This document shows, piece by piece, positions 35,139 through 58,770 of a DNA stretch of 64,000 bases. Each line of letters starts with the position of its first letter. Within the stretch, counting starts at the first letter, position 1. The position numbers and the translations under genes were made by a program. The notes beneath the pieces were generated by a model. That model made no database searches, was not told the origin of the DNA, and saw nothing but the letters and a program-made list of their open reading frames with translations. Source of the DNA: Escallonia rubra (taxonomy: Eukaryota > Streptophyta > Magnoliopsida > Escalloniales > Escalloniaceae); assembly GCA_033065855.1 (NCBI GenBank), contig JAVXUO010000310.1, forward strand, positions 806,001 to 870,000, read 5' to 3'.

Positions 35139-36064
35139 TCAATTTGGTGCTTGGTTTATTATTTCTCCAAACTTTGATTGAAAAAAAAGGAACTGAAAGA
35201 AGATGCTCCTTTTTAAATTTTGGTTTGTCTAACAATACCCACAATCTTTGTGTACTTGGCAATGAGCTTATTCAAAGTGGAGATGGAAGGAAGTCTAGGT
35301 TCATTTTTCTTAAATGTGTTATGTGACTTTTGAATTAATTAAGCATCATATTGAGATGGTGTTAAAACAATCTTTCAACGAATGCTTTCGTTTTGACTTG
35401 CATATCTTTATTTTTTTGTACCTCTTTTCCGATGTCATGGAATAAAAAGGCCGTCCAACTTTCTCTCGTCCACATTGGCTTACTTAAACATGATTGTTCT
35501 CACCCAGTGATAGTTTCATTAATCACCGTCACTTGTTACACTTACTAGTCACATAACCCATAGTACATCTATTACTCACAACCAAAACTAAGAACCATTC
35601 ACAAGCAACGCACATGAATAACTAGTTAAGATCAAAAGGCAAAAGATGAAGCAAGTTCATGCTCCGAATGCTTTCATCTCAATAAGCAGAGTAAGGACTC
35701 GCAGCAAAGTAGGCTGATGTTGTTTGCCTTGGTTTTTTAGGAGCATGGTTATGGCAGTCATATATTCTTTCAAAGATCTTTGAGGCTGGGTTTGCTAGGC
35801 TGGTAAGCTTGGTGCTAAAGTTATCATTTGCTTTGAAAGCTTAAACTAATATAGAATGGGACCTAACAATGTATATCTTACTTTGTTTGGCATTCCCTCG
35901 AAAGATCAAGGTGCTCTGATACCATTACCAGGTCTTGGTTTTGATTATTTTTCCTTGTGCATTTGATCCCCTTTCTTATAGTGCACTATGTGCTCCGCTT
36001 ATTTGTGTACTTGGTAGTGGTGATGCACCTTGTAGGTTACTTAACCTTTTAGATCATACAATAC
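35139..36064. other. Duplication copy 1, 3' segment, no gene
   Basis: Aligns with 46467-47374 at roughly 90% identity, including AACTAGTTAAGATCAAAAGGCAAAAGATG and TACCATTACCAGGTCTTGG. No frame is conserved between the two copies. Confidence 0.8.

Positions 36065-51493: not shown

Positions 51494-51550
<57 letters not shown>
51494..51550. repeat. (TA)n tract at left edge of the viral mosaic
   Basis: 57 bp of TA repeat; viral sequence begins directly at 51551. A matching (TA)n lies at the other edge (58700-58770). Confidence 0.95.
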
Positions 51551-51553
<3 letters not shown>

Positions 51554-51787
51554 CTAAGAATTCTAATCTCCTGTTAACATTTTTATCATAATAAGTGTCT
51601 TTGTTTGTTTTAAGTTCTAAAGGTTTAATAATATCTATGTTATATTTTTGTTTTATGCATGCTTCTATATGACATAAATTACACTTACATCTTACTTTAA
51701 TTGCAGGGTACCAAGTGCATATATAACATGGTGTTTTGTCTATACCTTTTTCTATTTGCCATTGGTGTATACAATCTTCTTCTAGAA
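51551..51787 (-). pseudogene. Viral Cys-rich zinc-binding-like fragment
   Basis: An open minus-strand frame without ATG across the whole block. It has an EDCIHQW start, then Cys spacing CX2C-X9-CXC-X2-C-X4-C, which recalls the second, Cys-rich motif near the C-terminus of several caulimovirid coat-protein regions, then a Lys/Asn-rich tail. It is cut at one side by (TA)n and at the other by a junction to plus-strand coat-protein sequence. Assignment to the coat protein is inference. Confidence 0.5.
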
Positions 51788-52110
51788 GGTGAAAATTCAG
51801 GCACTACTAATAATAACGACGGAGGCAGATTTTATACTACTCAACCTAATACAAGACCTCGTTATCCTTATGGAAATATACCTAGAAATAGTGCAAATAT
51901 TGACAATAATAGATCTGAAAGACCTAATTATAAACCTAAAGGTAAAAGACATCCTTTAGAACAAAACTTTAAAATACAGAAGGCTTCAGAACCCTTTATT
52001 TTAAATATAACAGCTGTAGATCCTCAACAAAGAAACAATTACATACAAATATGGAAAGATGCTGTAGTAGCAAACTTTATTCTAATGTTAATTGGTTGGC
52101 TAAGGGTTTA
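51784..52110 (+). pseudogene. Viral coat-protein region fragment (a)
   Basis: Frame with a low-complexity Asn/Arg/Pro-rich segment (TTNNNDGGRFYTTQPN...), basic KPKGKRHP, then the core-like NYIQIWKDAVVANFILMLIGW. Its first 140 bp are an exact direct repeat of 52756-52895. It continues past 51923 where the other copy stops. Joined at about 52110 to movement-protein sequence. Confidence 0.65.
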
Positions 52111-52240
52111 AGTAGGATATAAGTTAATTATAGATGACACTGCAAAATTTATTATCAATAGAGGAATTAGACTCTTACCACCATATAAAGTAGACCCATT
52201 AGAAAATTCAGGTCAAGAATGGCAAGTAGATAGACTACTA
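52111..52240 (+). pseudogene. Movement-protein C-terminal fragment
   Basis: Plus-strand copy of the part of the movement protein encoded at about 53260-53131 on the minus strand (VGYKL.IDDTAKFIINRGI to VDRLL), with one amino-acid change. Both ends are abrupt junctions. Confidence 0.9.
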
Positions 52241-52276
52241 GTAAGCATTGCTGGTCTTCTTTATTTGTCTTCTAGC
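52241..52276 (+). repeat. 36-bp direct repeat shared with the viral intergenic region
   Basis: GTAAGCATTGCTGGTCTTCT followed by TTATTTGTCTTCTAGC is repeated exactly at 54411-54446. On the minus strand it contains AATAAA. It is the junction between the movement-protein fragment and the RT fragment. Confidence 0.95.
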
Positions 52277-52478
52277 GAACCATGTTTATTAAAGAGTTTA
52301 AAGACTAAGTCTAGATGAGATAGATGCTCATGTTCGTTTTTGCTACATACTAAAATATCATCCATATATACTAAAATAAAGTCATTATAAGGTCTAAAAA
52401 TATCATCCATTTTGCGTTGGAAGATACTTGGTGCTGTCTTAAGACCAAAGGGCATAACTAACCATTCATATAAGCCAG
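52277..52478 (-). pseudogene. Reverse-transcriptase fragment with YMDD box
   Basis: Minus-strand frame reads GLYEWLVMPFGLKTAPSIFQ (RT motif B region), then FILVYMDDILVCS with the catalytic YMDD at 52368-52357, then HLDLVFKLFNKHG. The preceding motif-A region is on the plus strand at 58531-58699. This gives RT coverage of about 67 residues here, with protease, thumb and RNase H missing. Confidence 0.93.
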
Positions 52479-52527
52479 AAGAAATGAAAATACTGTAGGA
52501 AACAGAGTTCTTAGACTTTTCAGAACT
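52479..52527 (+). pseudogene. 49-bp movement-protein N-terminal scrap
   Basis: Corresponds to about 58257-58306 (RRNENTVGNRVLRLFR), inserted between the RT fragment and coat-protein sequence. Confidence 0.85.
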
Positions 52528-52899
52528 TAACAAAGCAATAAAAGAAATAGAGTTAATTAGAAAAGAACAAAAAACTCTAGAAAAAGATAATAACATACTA
52601 ATAGAAGAAATGGATAACATACTAGATTCTATAAATCCAGAATTAGACCTAAACATAGACTTAGAACAGTTAGAAACAAGTTCCATAGACACCCAGATTA
52701 CAACAAACAATGTTAAATTCAATCTAATGAATGAAGTACCTTATGTCCTTATGGAAGAAGGTGAAAATTCAGGCACTACTAATAATAACGACGGAGGCAG
52801 ATTTTATACTACTCAACCTAATACAAGACCTCGTTATCCTTATGGAAATATACCTAGAAATAGTGCAAATATTGACAATAATAGATCTGAAAGACAAAC
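52528..52899 (+). pseudogene. Viral coat-protein region fragment (b), N-terminal part
   Basis: Frame begins LNKAIKEIELIRKEQKTLEKD, a heptad-rich coiled-coil-like stretch, continues through an acidic part (NPELDLNIDLEQLE) to the same Asn/Pro-rich segment as fragment (a) and ends at a junction near 52899. Acidic N-terminus followed by a basic, low-complexity part fits caulimovirid coat-protein precursors; placement is inference. Confidence 0.6.
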
Positions 52900-52903
52900 T
52901 TAA

Positions 52904-52993
52904 TCATTTTCCTACGAATGTAGTTCCTATAGATTGATTCAGGATTTTTATGTCTAAATTTTTTAAGATATCAAAGTCTTTGTAACTATACAT
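52904..52993 (-). pseudogene. First 29 codons of the ORF following the movement protein
   Basis: ATG at 52993-52991 overlaps the movement-protein stop (ATGTATAG), in the style of caulimovirid ORF junctions. The frame opens MYSYKDFDILKNLDIKILNQ and ends TTFVGK at a TGA that lies at or next to a rearrangement junction, so the real ORF was longer. Product unknown. Confidence 0.6.
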
Positions 52994-53954
52994 TTTCTAC
53001 TTCTTCAGGGATATCTTGGTCTTCTAGATGAGTATTAGCTTCTATATAATTAGTAAACCTAACTGACATTCTTCCTGATGCATTTCTATACCACATGTTA
53101 TCTGTGGGTACTATACTATTATTAGAGATAGTTTCTAGTAGTCTATCTACTTGCCATTCTTGACCTGAATTTTCTAATGGGTCTACTTTATATGGTGGTA
53201 AGAGTCTAATTCCTCTATTGATAATAAATTTTGCAGTGTCATCTATAGTTAACTTATATCCTACTTGACTATTTTGTGTTAATTTTCCTATAAATGTGGT
53301 GCATATTAAAAGATTTTTACCTTGTTGGAAATCTTCATAACCTTTTGTCATTATTTTTACTTTAATATTTTTTGCAAAATCTCTAGTGTTTATGCAGAAA
53401 TCTGGTGCGCAGTAAAATATGCCACCATTGTTGTTCATGTCTACTTCTATTGCTCCTATTATGGCTTGTTCACTAGAAAATCTATCGTCTATTATTGCTA
53501 AAAATACTTTTGCTCCTGTATCTCTTCTAGTTAAACCTTTTACTCCTATGACTATTAAGCCTATATGTGTTAAGTTAAAATTTCCTCTAATTAACTCATT
53601 TTCAGAGTCAGGATGTATTAGGTTTACACTAGCTACGTCTTCTCCTATACATCTGTTTTGTGTTTCTCTGTAATGCATAAATAGTCTTGTTTGACTAAGT
53701 TGAGAACGATGTTGATAAAGTATTTGGGGTGATATTAAATCTAATTTGTTTTGTCTAAACTGTTCAATTTGTCTATCAATGTCTATTATTTGTTCTAAAG
53801 AAACTATAGGGGCTGAAGGTGTTCTGAAAAGTCTAAGAACTCTGTTTCCTACAGTATTTTCATTTCTTCTTCTTGTTTCAGTGGCTAAAACTTCTGTTCT
53901 ATTTCTATCTTCTATATTACCTCTTCCTAAAATATGACTATTGTGACTTGTCAT
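52986..53954 (-). CDS. Viral movement protein (30K superfamily), 322 codons, intact
   Basis: Starts ATGACAAGTCACAATAG and overlaps the upstream 96-codon ORF by 17 nt. Central hydrophobic strand pattern LTHIGLIVIGVKGL ... AKVFLAIIDDRF with the conserved Asp of 30K movement proteins near residues 156-157, then QAIIGAIEVDMNN and a FCINTRDF stretch, as in caulimovirid ORF I products that form plasmodesmal tubules. The frame is open throughout and the length is normal for the family. A truncated second copy (118 residues) is on the plus strand at 58175-58530. Function of this integrated copy is not implied. Confidence 0.88.
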   Translation of the reverse strand: MTSHNSHILGRGNIEDRNRTEVLATETRRRNENTVGNRVLRLFRTPSAPIVSLEQIIDIDRQIEQFRQNKLDLISPQILYQHRSQLSQTRLFMHYRETQNRCIGEDVASVNLIHPDSENELIRGNFNLTHIGLIVIGVKGLTRRDTGAKVFLAIIDDRFSSEQAIIGAIEVDMNNNGGIFYCAPDFCINTRDFAKNIKVKIMTKGYEDFQQGKNLLICTTFIGKLTQNSQVGYKLTIDDTAKFIINRGIRLLPPYKVDPLENSGQEWQVDRLLETISNNSIVPTDNMWYRNASGRMSVRFTNYIEANTHLEDQDIPEEVENV

Positions 53955-54228
53955 AGACTAAAAATTTTAAATCGTCTTGTTTTTTAAACTTCTTTTTAGG
54001 CTTATCTAATGTTATATTTTCTAATTTTTTGCACAAATTTTCTATGTCTATTTGTGTATTAGTTTTAGGTTTGTCTAAATATATTTCCATTTTAAGTGCT
54101 AGGGTGTCTAGTCTTTCTAAACATTTTATTAGTAACATTATAATAATATTATTTTGTTTTCGATTAGAAAGGTCATTAGGAGTTCCTAGAGAGAATATTG
54201 TATTGCTCTTCAAAGGATTACTTTGCAT
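53938..54228 (-). CDS. Viral small ORF upstream of movement protein (96 codons, chimeric start)
   Basis: C-terminal 80 codons (from LGTPNDLSNRK to FLVYDKSQ) equal the plus-strand ORFs at 57930-58191. The first 13 codons come from the leader, joined at a CTCTAGGAAC microhomology, so this ORF is a deletion product that removed the upstream small ORFs. Lys-rich tail KPKKKFKKQDD. A CAA codon here corresponds to TAA in the other copy. Function unknown. Confidence 0.7.
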   Translation of the reverse strand: MQSNPLKSNTIFSLGTPNDLSNRKQNNIIIMLLIKCLERLDTLALKMEIYLDKPKTNTQIDIENLCKKLENITLDKPKKKFKKQDDLKFLVYDKSQ

Positions 54229-54736
54229 ATTTACAAATGAACTCTGCCTTAGTTTATATAGGCAGTAGAAAGACTTCTACAGGACTTTTAAATAATTGTC
54301 TTCCTATTTACGTAGGTCCTACTGAATGACAGGCTAAGACACTACATTACAAAATAAAATGCTGAAAGTCTTTATATGATACAGCGTATCTAATCTAAAA
54401 GATGCCTTAAGTAAGCATTGCTGGTCTTCTTTATTTGTCTTCTAGCAAAAAGTAGCTATCCCTTTCTTTATTACTGCTGTCTTTATGACTATTCTTCTGC
54501 CGACAGTGTCTTTTCTTCAAAAGAAAAGATGCTTCTTCCGACAATGTCTTCTGTTTTCTTTATTAAAGGAAAGATGCTTCAGTCTTTCAGTAACGTCTTC
54601 AGCTAATAATTCAGTCTTGGTGGGGTCTTGGCTGCTTCGGGAATACGTCTGAGTGTTGATAAGTCTTGATCCTTCTATTCAATTTTGTCTGTAGTAATAA
54701 TGCTTCTGCGGATTAGAATAGCTATAGTTGTTTTCT
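54229..54736 (-). promoter_or_regulatory. Viral intergenic region with TATA box and repeated GAAGCATCTTT motifs
   Basis: Lies between the transactivator stop and the next ORF, where caulimovirids keep the pregenomic promoter. The minus strand has CTGCCTATATAAACTAAGG (TATA at 54260-54253), and 230-350 nt upstream three imperfect copies of AAGACATTGTCGGAAGAAGCATC/T (about 54550-54470), resembling the GAAGCATC-type enhancer words of caulimovirus 35S promoters. An AATAAA lies in the 36-bp repeat at about 54430-54437. No tRNA-Met primer-binding site was found. Confidence 0.65.
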
Positions 54737-56008
54737 TTACTTGGATTCTTCAGTCTGGTCTTCAGTTATATCAGATGAGTCATCAGAATTAGCTGTAGGG
54801 CTAGGACTCTGTCGTTGAGCATCTTGAAATATTGAATCATCAAAATTGCTCGTGGATGCCTCTGTCTTGGATGCTAGTGTCTGATTAACAAGTTCTGCAA
54901 GTACTTTGGTAACCTGACTTTGTATGGCCAGGGCTTGTCTTTTTGCTTTTTTGCTTTTGAGTCTGCGTAATTCCATTTTTCCCAACTGGACAGGGATCTC
55001 AGGATTTGATAAGTCTTTACCAGTTACCTGCTGAACTGGACTAGGAATATATTCTCCCATATTCAAAGGCTTTTCAGTGTTTTTGAGTAAAACACCAACT
55101 ATGTCAGGACTTGAAATGTCTTTACCAGCGGCCTGTGAAGCTGGACTAGGGATTCTTTCTCCTGAATCCATGGGTTTTTCAGTAATTTTAAGTAAATTAC
55201 CAACTTTAACAGGACTTGATTTGTCTTTACTGGAAGCCTGTGAATCCAGACTAGATTTCCCTTTATTTCCAGAGGTGTTATGTTTACTGGATAGAAGGGT
55301 GGTGTATCTTTGTTTCCAGTCATTTGCCTCTAATTCTAAAACTTGTATTTGTGCTTTAAGTTGTGCTATTTGTAGGTCAAAATGTGATTTTTCTAAGAGT
55401 AAATGGTCTTGTCTTGATTTTAAAATATTATGATGCCTAATTAAAGTATTACAATTTTCACAATCAGCTATCGTGTCTGTAAGAGATCTATCTTGGCAGT
55501 CTGGACTAATATAATAATTAGAGCCGTAATGAGTTTGCATTAAAGTGGTGGCTTCTTGAAAAGTTATGGTACCTTTGTACCATGGTTGCTTTTCATTTCC
55601 AACACCTCCTACCATTGCCTCAGGATAACTTTTATAGATTCCTGGAATATTGCCTTTAAAAACACAGTAAAAATTATATTTTTTAGTGTCTCTAATTTTA
55701 TGAAAGTAGTTAGCTACAGCATTGACTGTATTGACGAACCATCCATTTTCTTTTTTTATGTATGATTGCCATAGATTGTCTAAGAGGGTTCCTTGATCTA
55801 CTGGGAAAGGTCCTATTTTATGGTCCTTGACCTGAAACCGGGAACCAGCATGTATAACTTCTAGGTTATTGCCATTGTAATTAATTCTATTTCTACCAAG
55901 GTTGTCAATATAACTAGTGAACTGAGTAGGAAAAACAGGGTTAGGCTGATTCGCCTGATTTTGCCTTGTCTGAGCAGAGGAAGATGCTGAAGATGCCGAA
56001 GATGCCAT
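54737..56008 (-). CDS. Viral transactivator/viroplasmin-like protein, 423 codons, intact
   Basis: Residues about 112-165 form the viroplasmin (RNase-H1 N-terminal-like) domain: FYCVFKGNIPGIYKSYPEA ... VGNEKQPWYKGTITFQEAT. A short Cys pair (CENC) and a heptad-rich coiled coil follow (about 190-245). The C-terminal part contains two full and one partial copy of a 36-residue repeat (SSPVKVGNLLKITEKP.. / SSPDIVGVLLKNTEKP.. / SNPEIP..) and then a basic KSKKAKR patch. In CaMV the homologous P6 builds inclusion bodies and allows reinitiation on polycistronic RNA. The frame is uninterrupted. The ATG follows directly on TTTGTTTCTTTCTACAG, an ideal 3' splice site. Confidence 0.88.
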   Translation of the reverse strand: MASSASSASSSAQTRQNQANQPNPVFPTQFTSYIDNLGRNRINYNGNNLEVIHAGSRFQVKDHKIGPFPVDQGTLLDNLWQSYIKKENGWFVNTVNAVANYFHKIRDTKKYNFYCVFKGNIPGIYKSYPEAMVGGVGNEKQPWYKGTITFQEATTLMQTHYGSNYYISPDCQDRSLTDTIADCENCNTLIRHHNILKSRQDHLLLEKSHFDLQIAQLKAQIQVLELEANDWKQRYTTLLSSKHNTSGNKGKSSLDSQASSKDKSSPVKVGNLLKITEKPMDSGERIPSPASQAAGKDISSPDIVGVLLKNTEKPLNMGEYIPSPVQQVTGKDLSNPEIPVQLGKMELRRLKSKKAKRQALAIQSQVTKVLAELVNQTLASKTEASTSNFDDSIFQDAQRQSPSPTANSDDSSDITEDQTEESK

Positions 56009-56083
56009 CTGTAGAAAGAAACAAACTTAGTAAAGGAGAATGTTAAGTAACCAGAGAGCAAATAACCCCTCATATCTATTATC
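56009..56083. other. Divergent junction between minus and plus viral blocks
   Basis: 75 bp separate the two outward-facing start codons. In the virus these ORFs would be far apart, so this is an inversion junction. The part next to 56008 reads as a branch-point-like TTTACTAAG and pyrimidine tract of a 3' splice site on the minus strand. Confidence 0.6.
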
Positions 56084-56473
56084 ATGAGTAATTTACCAAG
56101 TAATCGTCCAGCTAATCCTACATTTCATTCTACTTTTACTGAAGACAACGAAGAATATGCAGTAGATATTAGACAATTTAATGTTTTTTATTCTGCAATA
56201 GATAATATTAATTCTATAAATAGAAGCCTTAGATATTTTTTAGACTCAGGCAGACACCCTATTATTTTAGACCCTCTTAAATCTTATTTAGATTATACTG
56301 CTCAGACAGATCAGTTTACAAATAATATGAATGATTATTTAGCTAGTATGATAAGACATTATATAGCTCTTAAAGATATACATAACAATAGCAGATACTT
56401 TACTAGGTATGTAGAACAGATTACTAGAAGATCTGCAAACACAACACGTCATAGTAGAAATAATGAACAATAA
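56084..56473 (+). CDS. Viral small ORF A (129 codons), first of three paralogues
   Basis: Opens MSNLPSNRPANPTFHSTFTED. Core: FYSAIDNINSINRSLRYFLD ... LDPLKSYLDY ... MNDYLASMIRHYIALKDIHNN ... YFTRYVEQITRR, then a basic tail. Residues about 28-115 align without difficulty to ORFs B and C. Overlaps ORF B by 11 nt. All-helical character with regular aromatic residues; no match to a named family by eye. Position upstream of the coiled-coil ORF and movement protein suggests the first ORFs after the viral leader. Confidence 0.8.
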   Translation: MSNLPSNRPANPTFHSTFTEDNEEYAVDIRQFNVFYSAIDNINSINRSLRYFLDSGRHPIILDPLKSYLDYTAQTDQFTNNMNDYLASMIRHYIALKDIHNNSRYFTRYVEQITRRSANTTRHSRNNEQ

Positions 56474-56999
56474 TAGTTTTATAACCAGATTAAGAAATAG
56501 ATCTAGCACTTCCAGGCGTAGAGAACCTATTTTTACTAGCCTAACTGAAGAACGTTTTGAAGCAAATTATGTAGAGTATCGCAAATTATTCATAGCCCTA
56601 AGAGTAATAGATGATACAAATCATAGTATTAGATACCGTATTTCAGAAAACACCTTATCTTTAAAATACAATCCTCTAAGAACTTATCTTAGTTCCTTTA
56701 TAAATCTTTCAGCTTTAACTTCAGGCATGAATTCTTACTTAAAACACTTAATAGATTTCTACATATATTTTCAAGACAGCAAAAACAATAACTACTATAG
56801 TCATGAATATGATAGACTTAGAATCACTAGACCTAATTTTGATAGATTCAGAGCTATTATCGAAAGACATGAAGCTACAGCCTTAGAAAATATAACAGAC
56901 CACATGAATTTTCTACAAATAACAAGTGAAATACACAGTACAGATTCTGATAATTCTAGTAATGAAGAAGACCAAAACAGCTTGCATCTTCCAGATTAA
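56463..56999 (+). CDS. Viral small ORF B (178 codons), second paralogue
   Basis: Basic N-terminus (RLRNRSSTSRRREP), then the shared core (YRKLFIALRVIDDTNHSIRY, LKYNPLRTYLSSF, MNSYLKHLIDFYIYFQDSKN, YYSHEYDRLR), then an acidic Ser/Asp/Glu tail ending EEDQNSLHLPD. Its TAA overlaps the ATG of ORF C (TAATG). Longer than ORF A because it has the tail. Function unknown. Confidence 0.8.
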   Translation: MNNNSFITRLRNRSSTSRRREPIFTSLTEERFEANYVEYRKLFIALRVIDDTNHSIRYRISENTLSLKYNPLRTYLSSFINLSALTSGMNSYLKHLIDFYIYFQDSKNNNYYSHEYDRLRITRPNFDRFRAIIERHEATALENITDHMNFLQITSEIHSTDSDNSSNEEDQNSLHLPD

Positions 57000-57448
57000 T
57001 GACAAATAGATATTTAAGCACTGAGCCTTACCAAGAACCATTTAACTTCGAAGACATGATAGTTAATTTCAATATAGATCAACAAACTACGACAGATATA
57101 TTAGACACTTTTCATAGATTCTATACAGCTATAGAAACAATAGATCATACAAATGAAAGATTAAAACATTACTTAGACACAGATTCTATTACCCTATTAT
57201 ACAACCCCTTATCTTTTTACATAAGATATTTTCTAAACTTAGACTTATTATTAGAAGATTTTGACATTTTCTTTCAACATCTCATAGGCTTTTATATACA
57301 ATTAAAAGACCAGCAAAATAACTCTTTATATTATACTGAGTTTCACAGAAGGTTAAATCAAATAGATCAAACTACAGCCTTAAGTAACCTAGGTGTACCT
57401 ACAGATGTTTCTACACAAATAATAAATAATATGAATAACCTGCAATGA
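56999..57448 (+). CDS. Viral small ORF C (149 codons), third paralogue, tail cut by TGA
   Basis: Shared core: FHRFYTAIETIDHTNERLKHY, LLYNPLSFYIRYF, FFQHLIGFYIQLKDQQN, LYYTEFHRRL. The frame ends at TGA 57446-57448, but the same frame stays open for 36 further codons, strongly acidic (Asp/Glu/Tyr), to a TAA at 57557-57559 that abuts the next ATG. ORF B has a comparable acidic tail, so the TGA probably truncates the ancestral protein. Confidence 0.8.
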   Translation: MTNRYLSTEPYQEPFNFEDMIVNFNIDQQTTTDILDTFHRFYTAIETIDHTNERLKHYLDTDSITLLYNPLSFYIRYFLNLDLLLEDFDIFFQHLIGFYIQLKDQQNNSLYYTEFHRRLNQIDQTTALSNLGVPTDVSTQIINNMNNLQ

Positions 57449-57559
57449 GAATCAGATTTAGATTATGATGATTATTTAAACTACAATGAAGACGATAATG
57501 ATTATCCGTGGGATGATGAAGCCCTGGCTAATCTAGACAATTCTCTTAATGGAATATAA

Positions 57560-57841
57560 ATGGCTACAAACAAAATAGAATATTTAAATCTACAAACAGA
57601 TAATAAAAGTTTAAAAATAATTAGAGAAAACTTAGATTATATGAAAGAAGTTTTTATGCAATCTTCTGATAAGTCTAAACAAAGTGAAGCTAAGACAGAA
57701 GTTATCATAGACAAACTAATTAAACAAACAGAAGAATTAAATAAGATTAAAATTATGATAGAAAAACTAGAAAAACAGACCAGTAAGTTAGAAGAAAACA
57801 TAAGACAATATTTTAATATACATGGACTAGAATATATATGA
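57560..57841 (+). CDS. Viral coiled-coil protein ORF (93 codons), VAP-like position
   Basis: Follows TAA directly (TAAATG). Rich in Lys, Glu, Ile and Leu, with heptads throughout residues 35-85 (EVIIDKLIKQTEELNKIKIM). Size and coiled-coil make-up resemble the virion-associated protein of caulimoviruses, which tetramerises through an N-terminal coiled coil and links virion to movement protein; homology is not demonstrable by eye. Its TGA overlaps the next ATG (ATGA). Confidence 0.65.
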   Translation: MATNKIEYLNLQTDNKSLKIIRENLDYMKEVFMQSSDKSKQSEAKTEVIIDKLIKQTEELNKIKIMIEKLEKQTSKLEENIRQYFNIHGLEYI

Positions 57842-57975
57842 CAACTTCCAAAAGTTATGAAAATTATTCAGATTATAAACAAGCTATGTTAGATGAAAAT
57901 GACTACTTATTTCCAGCAGAAGGCATAACTAAAAATGCTCTAGGAACTCCTAATGACCTTTCTAATCGAAAATAA
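57838..57975 (+). pseudogene. Viral small ORF, 45 codons, ended by TAA
   Basis: Starts at the ATGA overlap, opens MTTSKSYENYSDYKQAMLDE and stops at TAA 57973-57975. In the minus-strand copy the equivalent codon is CAA and the frame continues, so this TAA is probably a C-to-T nonsense change splitting one ORF into this piece and the next. Confidence 0.7.
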
Positions 57976-57990
57976 AATAATATTATTATA

Positions 57991-58191
57991 ATGTTACTAA
58001 TAAAATGTTTAGAAAGACTAGACACCCTAGCACTTAAAATGGAAATATATTTAAACAAACCTAAAACTAATACACAAATAGACATAGAAAATTTGTGCAA
58101 AAAATTAGAAAATATAACATTAGATAAGCCTAAAAAGAAGTTTAAAAAACAAGACGATTTAAAATTTTTAGTCTATGACAAGTCACAATAG
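57991..58191 (+). pseudogene. Downstream part of the split viral ORF (66 codons)
   Basis: Same frame as the preceding 45-codon ORF beyond its TAA; opens at an internal ATG (MLLIKCLERLDTLALKMEIY) and ends KKQDDLKFLVYDKSQ, overlapping the movement-protein start by 17 nt. Nearly identical to 54183-53938 on the minus strand. Confidence 0.75.
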
Positions 58192-58530
58192 TCATATTTT
58201 AGGAAGAGGTAATATAGAAGATAGAAATAGAACAGAAGTTTTAGCCACTGAAACAAGAAGAAGAAATGAAAATACTGTAGGAAACAGAGTTCTTAGACTT
58301 TTCAGAACACCTTCAGCCCCTATAGTTTCTTTAGAACAAATAATAGACATTGATAGACAAATTGAACAGTTTAGACAAAACAGATTAGATTTAATATCAC
58401 CCCAAATACTTTATCAACATCGTTCTCAACTTAGTCAAACAAGACTATTTATGCATTACAGAGAAACACAAAACAGATGTATAGGAGAAGACGTAGCTAG
58501 TGTTAACCTAATACATCATGACTCTGAAAA
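58175..58530 (+). pseudogene. Movement protein, first 118 codons only
   Basis: Near-identical to the N-terminal third of the minus-strand movement protein (differences include K/R near residue 70 and P/H near 115). After DSEN the sequence jumps to RT, removing the rest of the movement protein, the coat protein and the start of pol. The chance frame closes three codons later. Confidence 0.9.
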
Positions 58531-58697
58531 TGTAGAATGGTAATAAATTATAAAAGACTTAACGATAATATAAAAGATGATAGCTATAATATTCCTAATA
58601 AGACCTTTCTTTTAAGTAAAATACAAGGCAAAATGATATTTAGCAAATTCGACTGTAAATCAGGCTTTTATCAAATTAAAATGTGGCCTGAAGACGT

Positions 58698-58699
<2 letters not shown>
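58531..58699 (+). pseudogene. Reverse-transcriptase fragment, motif-A side
   Basis: Frame reads RMVINYKRLNDNI, LLSKIQGKMIFSKFDCKSGF and YQIKMWPEDVK: the RT fingers/motif A region with the catalytic-site Asp in FDCKSGF. It is interrupted by (TA)n immediately after. It directly precedes, in protein order, the region at 52478-52277. Confidence 0.92.

Positions 58700-58770
<71 letters not shown>
58700..58770. repeat. (TA)n tract at right edge of the viral mosaic
   Basis: About 71 bp of TA/AT repeat between RT sequence and plant DNA. Confidence 0.95.

Follow-up and report, generated by a model that had tools for sequence, protein, structure and literature searches.

Caulimovirid genomes measure 7.1–9.8 kb and hold one to nine ORFs (PMC10377300; this and the other papers cited are represented here by excerpts). 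In badnaviruses and tungroviruses the small ORF1 and ORF2 proteins are encoded upstream of the movement protein (MP), and badnavirus P2 has a nucleic-acid-binding C-terminus (PMC10885806); no recognisable transactivator is present in these two genera according to the excerpted account (PMC5902531). In Dioscorea nummularia-associated virus (DNUaV, Dioscovirus), ORF1 (450 nt) and ORF2 (384 nt) are joined by an ATGA overlap and precede ORF3, which bears the MP, with a transactivator-domain ORF downstream (PMC6135502). The endogenous cotton pararetroviral element (eCPRVE) includes inverted copies, a separate MP, a transactivator and two 5′ ORFs (14.4 and 24.4 kDa) without a database match (PMC10458927). 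Soymoviruses, e.g. water chestnut soymovirus 1, have a transactivator, a separate MP and several small ORFs of unknown function (PMC6482551). Outside the family, the U1–U3 genes of Hapavirus (Rhabdoviridae) are tandem-duplicated small accessory ORFs of low mutual identity, and stop-start junctions such as UAAUG occur in the Rhabdoviridae (PMC4334499).

We describe here a locus in a 64,000-nucleotide stretch of the Escallonia rubra genome (the window) in which five small ORFs, three of them paralogues (A, B and C), stand before a separate MP. DNUaV differs in having a single ORF1 and a single ORF2 followed by an MP-CP-Pol polyprotein, and badnaviruses and tungroviruses differ both in lacking a recognisable transactivator and in that no tandem-multiplied ORF1 is reported for them among the matches listed, although the basic C-terminus of ORF E/F recalls that of badnavirus P2. 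Among those matches the closest published arrangement appears to be eCPRVE, which by its description has two unmatched ORFs before the MP where five are found here, and for which the excerpt mentions no paralogy. The extra ORFs of soymoviruses (also lettered A–D) lie between MP and CP and are not described, in the excerpt, as related to one another (PMC6482551). Hapaviruses are unrelated negative-strand RNA viruses and offer an evolutionary parallel only. No caulimovirid with tandem paralogous or triplicated small ORFs was found among the matches listed from the open-licence PMC literature, a set of excerpts without the original descriptions of rose yellow vein virus and Rudbeckia flower distortion virus.

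A rearranged caulimovirid insert

The sequence-only reading had placed the block in an endogenous caulimovirid, and this assignment held: the insert (Table 1) carries a 30K-type MP of the kind expected in Caulimoviridae, with PF01107 above its cut-off, two RVT_1 pieces, one above and one below the cut-off, together with a YMDD motif, a sub-threshold Cauli_VI match, and TA repeats on both sides. An RVT_1 match by itself fits LTR elements as well as caulimovirids; it is the adjoining MP that tells the two apart. Endogenous florendoviruses are frequently flanked by TA repeats (PMC4241990), a habit of that group and not a defining feature of Caulimoviridae. The Cauli_VI match (RNase H1 N-terminal domain) covers 19 residues at E = 0.0063, its 17.2 bits falling short of the cut-off (21), and the transactivator-like ORF found no match in the PDB at E up to 1. 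From these sequence features we identify the insert as a rearranged fragment of a plant pararetrovirus, a caulimovirid, lying in a plant chromosome.

Table 1. Features of the caulimovirid insert; positions are counted from the first base of the window.
Feature	Position	Strand	Description
Left (TA)n repeat	51494–51553	+	Flanks the insert
Reverse-transcriptase fragment	52279–52482	−	RVT_1 E = 1.9e-18, 67.4 bits; YMDD motif at 52368
Movement protein, 30K superfamily	52986–53954	−	322 aa, separate uninterrupted ORF; PF01107 32.8 bits (cut-off 23), E = 6.8e-8
Second partial E/F copy	53938–54228	−	Uninterrupted; in inverted arms
DNA 3′ of transactivator-like ORF	54192–54736	−	Promoter-like; holds a TATA-like box (near 54260); directly adjoins E/F at 54191
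Transactivator/viroplasmin-like ORF	54737–56008	−	423 aa; sub-threshold Cauli_VI
ORF A	56084–56473	+	129 aa, 15.3 kDa; paralogue core and short tail, without acidic extension
ORF B	56463–56999	+	178 aa, 21.3 kDa; basic N-terminal stretch, core, acidic C-terminal tail
ORF C	56999–57448	+	149 aa, pI 4.5; core ~residues 38–117; premature in-frame stop at end
C-frame continuation past in-frame stop	57449–57559	+	Very acidic 36-residue tail, pI 4.1
ORF D	57560–57841	+	93 aa, lysine/glutamate-rich; coiled-coil-like by eye; no detectable A/B/C paralogy
ORF E/F	57838–58191	+	ATGA overlap with D; 17-nt overlap with MP; basic lysine-rich C-terminus
MP ORF, N-terminal part (second copy)	58175–58540	+	Then joined to reverse-transcriptase piece
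Reverse-transcriptase fragment	58531–58701	+	RVT_1 E = 6e-5, 23.3 bits (cut-off 29.6); runs into right TA repeat
Right (TA)n repeat	58700–58760	+	Flanks the insert

The insert, at approximately 51554–58700, is rearranged, since the E/F-MP part is present in two inverted arms (595 bp, 99.16% identical), and most of CP and Pol are apparently missing. Over 119 aa the plus-strand MP part agrees with the minus-strand MP at 98%, and E/F on the plus strand is a single frame split by one in-frame stop at a point where the minus-strand copy is open; the other premature stop in this insert is that of C. The coding strand switches between 56009 and 56083, which marks a rearrangement junction near A. Neither a CCHC knuckle nor a protease motif was found in the six frames of 51554–58700, a partial insert, and none of the six matches to a Met-tRNA primer-binding site in the window (≤2 mismatches; 3.2 expected by chance) falls in this interval; the viral leader seems to be missing. 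Separately, a perfect 12-base Met-tRNA primer-site motif occurs beyond the insert, at 35913–35924 (minus strand), and may belong to an LTR retrotransposon. A, B and C stand upstream of the MP, the promoter-like DNA being on another, rearranged piece, and they may have occupied the 5′ end of the viral genome, where the sequence-only reading had put them.

Paralogy and divergence of ORFs A, B and C

The positions, lengths (129, 178 and 149 aa) and junctions (an 11-nt A/B overlap; a TAATG shared by the stop of B and the start of C) that the sequence-only reading gave for the three ORFs are correct, and the end of its block, 57559, corresponds to the end of the C frame beyond one in-frame stop, the final TAA at 57557–57559 abutting the ATG of ORF D. 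In B the core spans approximately residues 38–118 and the acidic tail residues 130–178 (pI 4.4).

That reading had also proposed that the three share one core, and the similarity far exceeds chance. BLASTP aligned A with B at E = 2e-9 (31% identity over 105 columns), B with C at E = 1e-16 (34% over 80 columns) and A with C at E = 2e-14 (32% over 90 columns). Smith-Waterman scores of 115 (A/B), 159 (B/C) and 138 (A/C) compare with shuffled means of 34–38 (z from 11 to 19), and for each of the three pairs the observed score was reached in 0/1000 residue shuffles and 0/1000 local-window shuffles. When a profile of two members was run against 430 six-frame segments (≥50 aa) of the window, the member left out was recovered at E = 4.3e-16 (A), 3.3e-16 (B) and 9.7e-20 (C), with the best non-member in the three runs at E = 0.12, 0.84 and 0.2. 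The profile-profile comparison proposed as a check, hhalign, returned probabilities of 97.7–98.1% among A, B and C. All three agree at thirteen columns of the core, and core identity between pairs is 28–34% (82 core codons). Chance similarity is ruled out by the shuffles together with the leave-one-out profiles.

Derivation of A, B and C from another gene of the same insert was considered for MP, TAV (the transactivator-like ORF), D and F, most of CP and Pol being missing, and was supported by neither the Smith-Waterman shuffles nor the profiles. The seven pairings of D or F with A, B and C scored at or below the shuffle mean. For A, the best non-member was the movement protein, with scores of 49 and 46 that lie within the shuffle range (maximum 63–64). 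In the profile runs D (E = 0.85–7.2) and the E/F pieces (5.9 and 9) appeared as chance-level rows only, and MP and TAV were absent from the rows obtained with the 430 segments. No fourth copy was found in the 64-kb window, six-frame profile search included. From the shuffle and profile results, the paralogy of A, B and C is real and, within the window, limited to these three.

Second codon positions of the 82 core codons match at 0.48–0.63, against 0.30–0.31 expected from composition, and first positions at 0.43–0.50 against 0.28–0.29, whereas third positions (0.41–0.44 against 0.33–0.34) are little above expectation. Since the alignment was built from the proteins and is thereby biased towards the first two codon positions, this pattern supports protein-level constraint on the core without measuring it. 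The divergence between the copies (28–34% core identity) far exceeds that of the duplicated arms, which are less than 1% apart, and this probably places the tripling of the gene in the virus, ahead of integration. The arm identity dates the insert only on the assumption that the arms formed at or after integration and have not been homogenised. The earlier proposal of triplication and divergence within a viral genome is thus most likely right, as against duplication in the plant.

Searches of a protein database and of IMG/VR returned no relative of A, B or C; the insert's own MP and RT were also unmatched in both, and these collections, which seem to hold no caulimovirids, cannot speak to novelty. 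No relative was found in the PDB. A helical fold is suggested by an AF2 model of B alone, which is weak (mean pLDDT 55.6, pTM 0.44; helices predicted at 29–61, 71–78, 82–85, 91–111 and 123–160) and for which structure comparison gave no informative match.

Expression, possible function and origin

The ORFs A-B-C-D-E/F-MP form one tight plus-strand chain in which all five junctions overlap or abut (in order 11 nt, TAATG, TAAATG, ATGA and 17 nt, the TAAATG being counted from the end of the C frame and not from the premature stop of C). In RTBV, ORFs I and II lack internal AUGs, which aids leaky scanning; reinitiation is the mechanism described for TAV-bearing genera (PMC5902531). Between the six starts of the present chain there are 39 further AUGs, with a purine at −3 in 27/39, which disfavours leaky scanning of the RTBV type; yet four of the six starts are in weak context, the −3 base being A for ORFs A and B, and T for C, D, E/F and MP. 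With so many AUGs inside the chain and a transactivator probably encoded, reinitiation seems the best fit, with the caveat that the transactivator match is below the Pfam cut-off. A single pregenomic RNA would carry the whole chain from A to MP, and the virus's own putative transactivator would let ribosomes reinitiate from ORF to ORF.

On the whole we consider it reasonably probable that this is a caulimovirid insert in which a small gene before the MP was tandem-duplicated twice, that the copies diverged to about 30% under constraint before integration, and that they were expressed by reinitiation and served in an accessory module. A, B and C might be small, mainly helical, multimer-forming accessory proteins, perhaps forming, together with D and E/F, a module associated with the virion or the viroplasm, in the place that ORF1 and ORF2 occupy in the genomes of badnaviruses, tungroviruses and dioscoviruses. 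The three copies would have split tasks, with acidic tails in B and C and none in A; the acidic tail of C lies past its premature stop. Pfam includes a virion-associated/DNA-binding family. Even at E up to 10, no row for badnavirus ORF1 or a virion-associated protein was obtained with A, B, C, D or the pieces of E/F, the second E/F copy included, and the comparison is thus one of position, without sequence support.

We also put forward, tentatively and short of favouring it, that a novel helical accessory family in three tandem copies defines a caulimovirid lineage, one that would join a block of small ORFs before the MP, as in badnaviruses, to a separate MP and a transactivator of caulimovirus type. 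If so, reverse-transcribing plant viruses would have here their first example of an accessory cassette triplicated in tandem. Caulimovirid genomes are small, yet approximately 1.5 kb is given here to three copies of one accessory gene, which suggests selection for diverged versions. The locus would exemplify innovation by tandem gene duplication in a DNA pararetrovirus, as documented in rhabdoviruses (PMC4334499), and the A/B/C core is a concrete marker for tracing the rest of the lineage in plant genomes.

The viral triplet could instead consist of host-defence antagonists (e.g. silencing or immune suppressors) multiplied in an arms race, and not of virion- or viroplasm-associated proteins, a possibility that we regard as unlikely but worth serious attention. 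The strong divergence between copies (28–34% identity) and their differing tails would suit such a history, as would the reported role of the small badnavirus ORF2 protein as a pathogenic factor (PMC10885806) and the precedent of rhabdoviruses, which tandem-duplicate small accessory ORFs, e.g. hapavirus U1–U3 (PMC4334499). However, the defence suppressor of Caulimovirus is the transactivator (PMC5902531), which is apparently encoded here too. Moreover, no feature of A, B or C points to such activity.

It is rather improbable that A, B and C are a diverged form of the DUF1319-type protein that ORF1 encodes in badnaviruses, tungroviruses and dioscoviruses, with only the copy number new. DUF1319 is the label of badnavirus ORF1, and its model is present in the Pfam library; hmmscan of A, B, C and D at E up to 10 returned no row for it. 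The size of the proteins and their position upstream of the MP are similar, and ORF1 of DNUaV is 450 nt long and shares an ATGA with ORF2 (PMC6135502), but D, which adjoins E/F, is at least an equal positional candidate for ORF1.

Host or transposon genes brought beside viral sequence by rearrangement are a very improbable source of A, B and C. The change of coding strand between 56009 and 56083 places a rearrangement junction nearby, and there are sub-threshold matches of A to Mad3_BUB1_I (E = 0.064, 13.6 bits against a cut-off of 31.4) and of D to the plant family RdDM_RDM1 (E = 0.037, 14.5 against 25). These two rows are far below cut-off, all 11 Pfam rows for D are below it, and B and C produced no row; searching the PDB and the protein database brought no match, and A to MP form one same-strand chain of overlapping or abutting ORFs, all of low G+C. 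Duplication in the plant after integration, which would make the triplet a chromosomal tandem repeat, is scarcely credible even in an insert that is heavily rearranged and holds duplicated arms, as those arms are 99.16% identical while A, B and C agree at 28–34% of core residues, A and B are fully open, and neutral decay to that extent would be expected to destroy the frames.

Further features of the insert

At the left end of the insert, 51554–51803 (minus strand) holds a cysteine-rich piece with the spacing CX2CX11CX2CX4C, which we take to resemble a second cysteine motif of badnavirus polyproteins. A 147-bp piece is duplicated in open frames of the insert (51784–51930 and 52756–52902, 98% identical) and may encode part of the coat protein or polyprotein. 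The transactivator-like ORF carries a tandem repeat of a segment of approximately 35–50 residues at 54996–55254 (minus strand; 76% identity over 155 aligned bp at an offset of 105 bp). Upstream of its ATG, the sequence at 56083–56006 (minus strand) is pyrimidine-rich, with CTACAG directly before the ATG, and resembles a 3′ splice acceptor; the site may be an acceptor or, equally, a product of the rearrangement junction or of chance, and as an acceptor it would recall the spliced RNA of RTBV ORF IV (PMC5902531).
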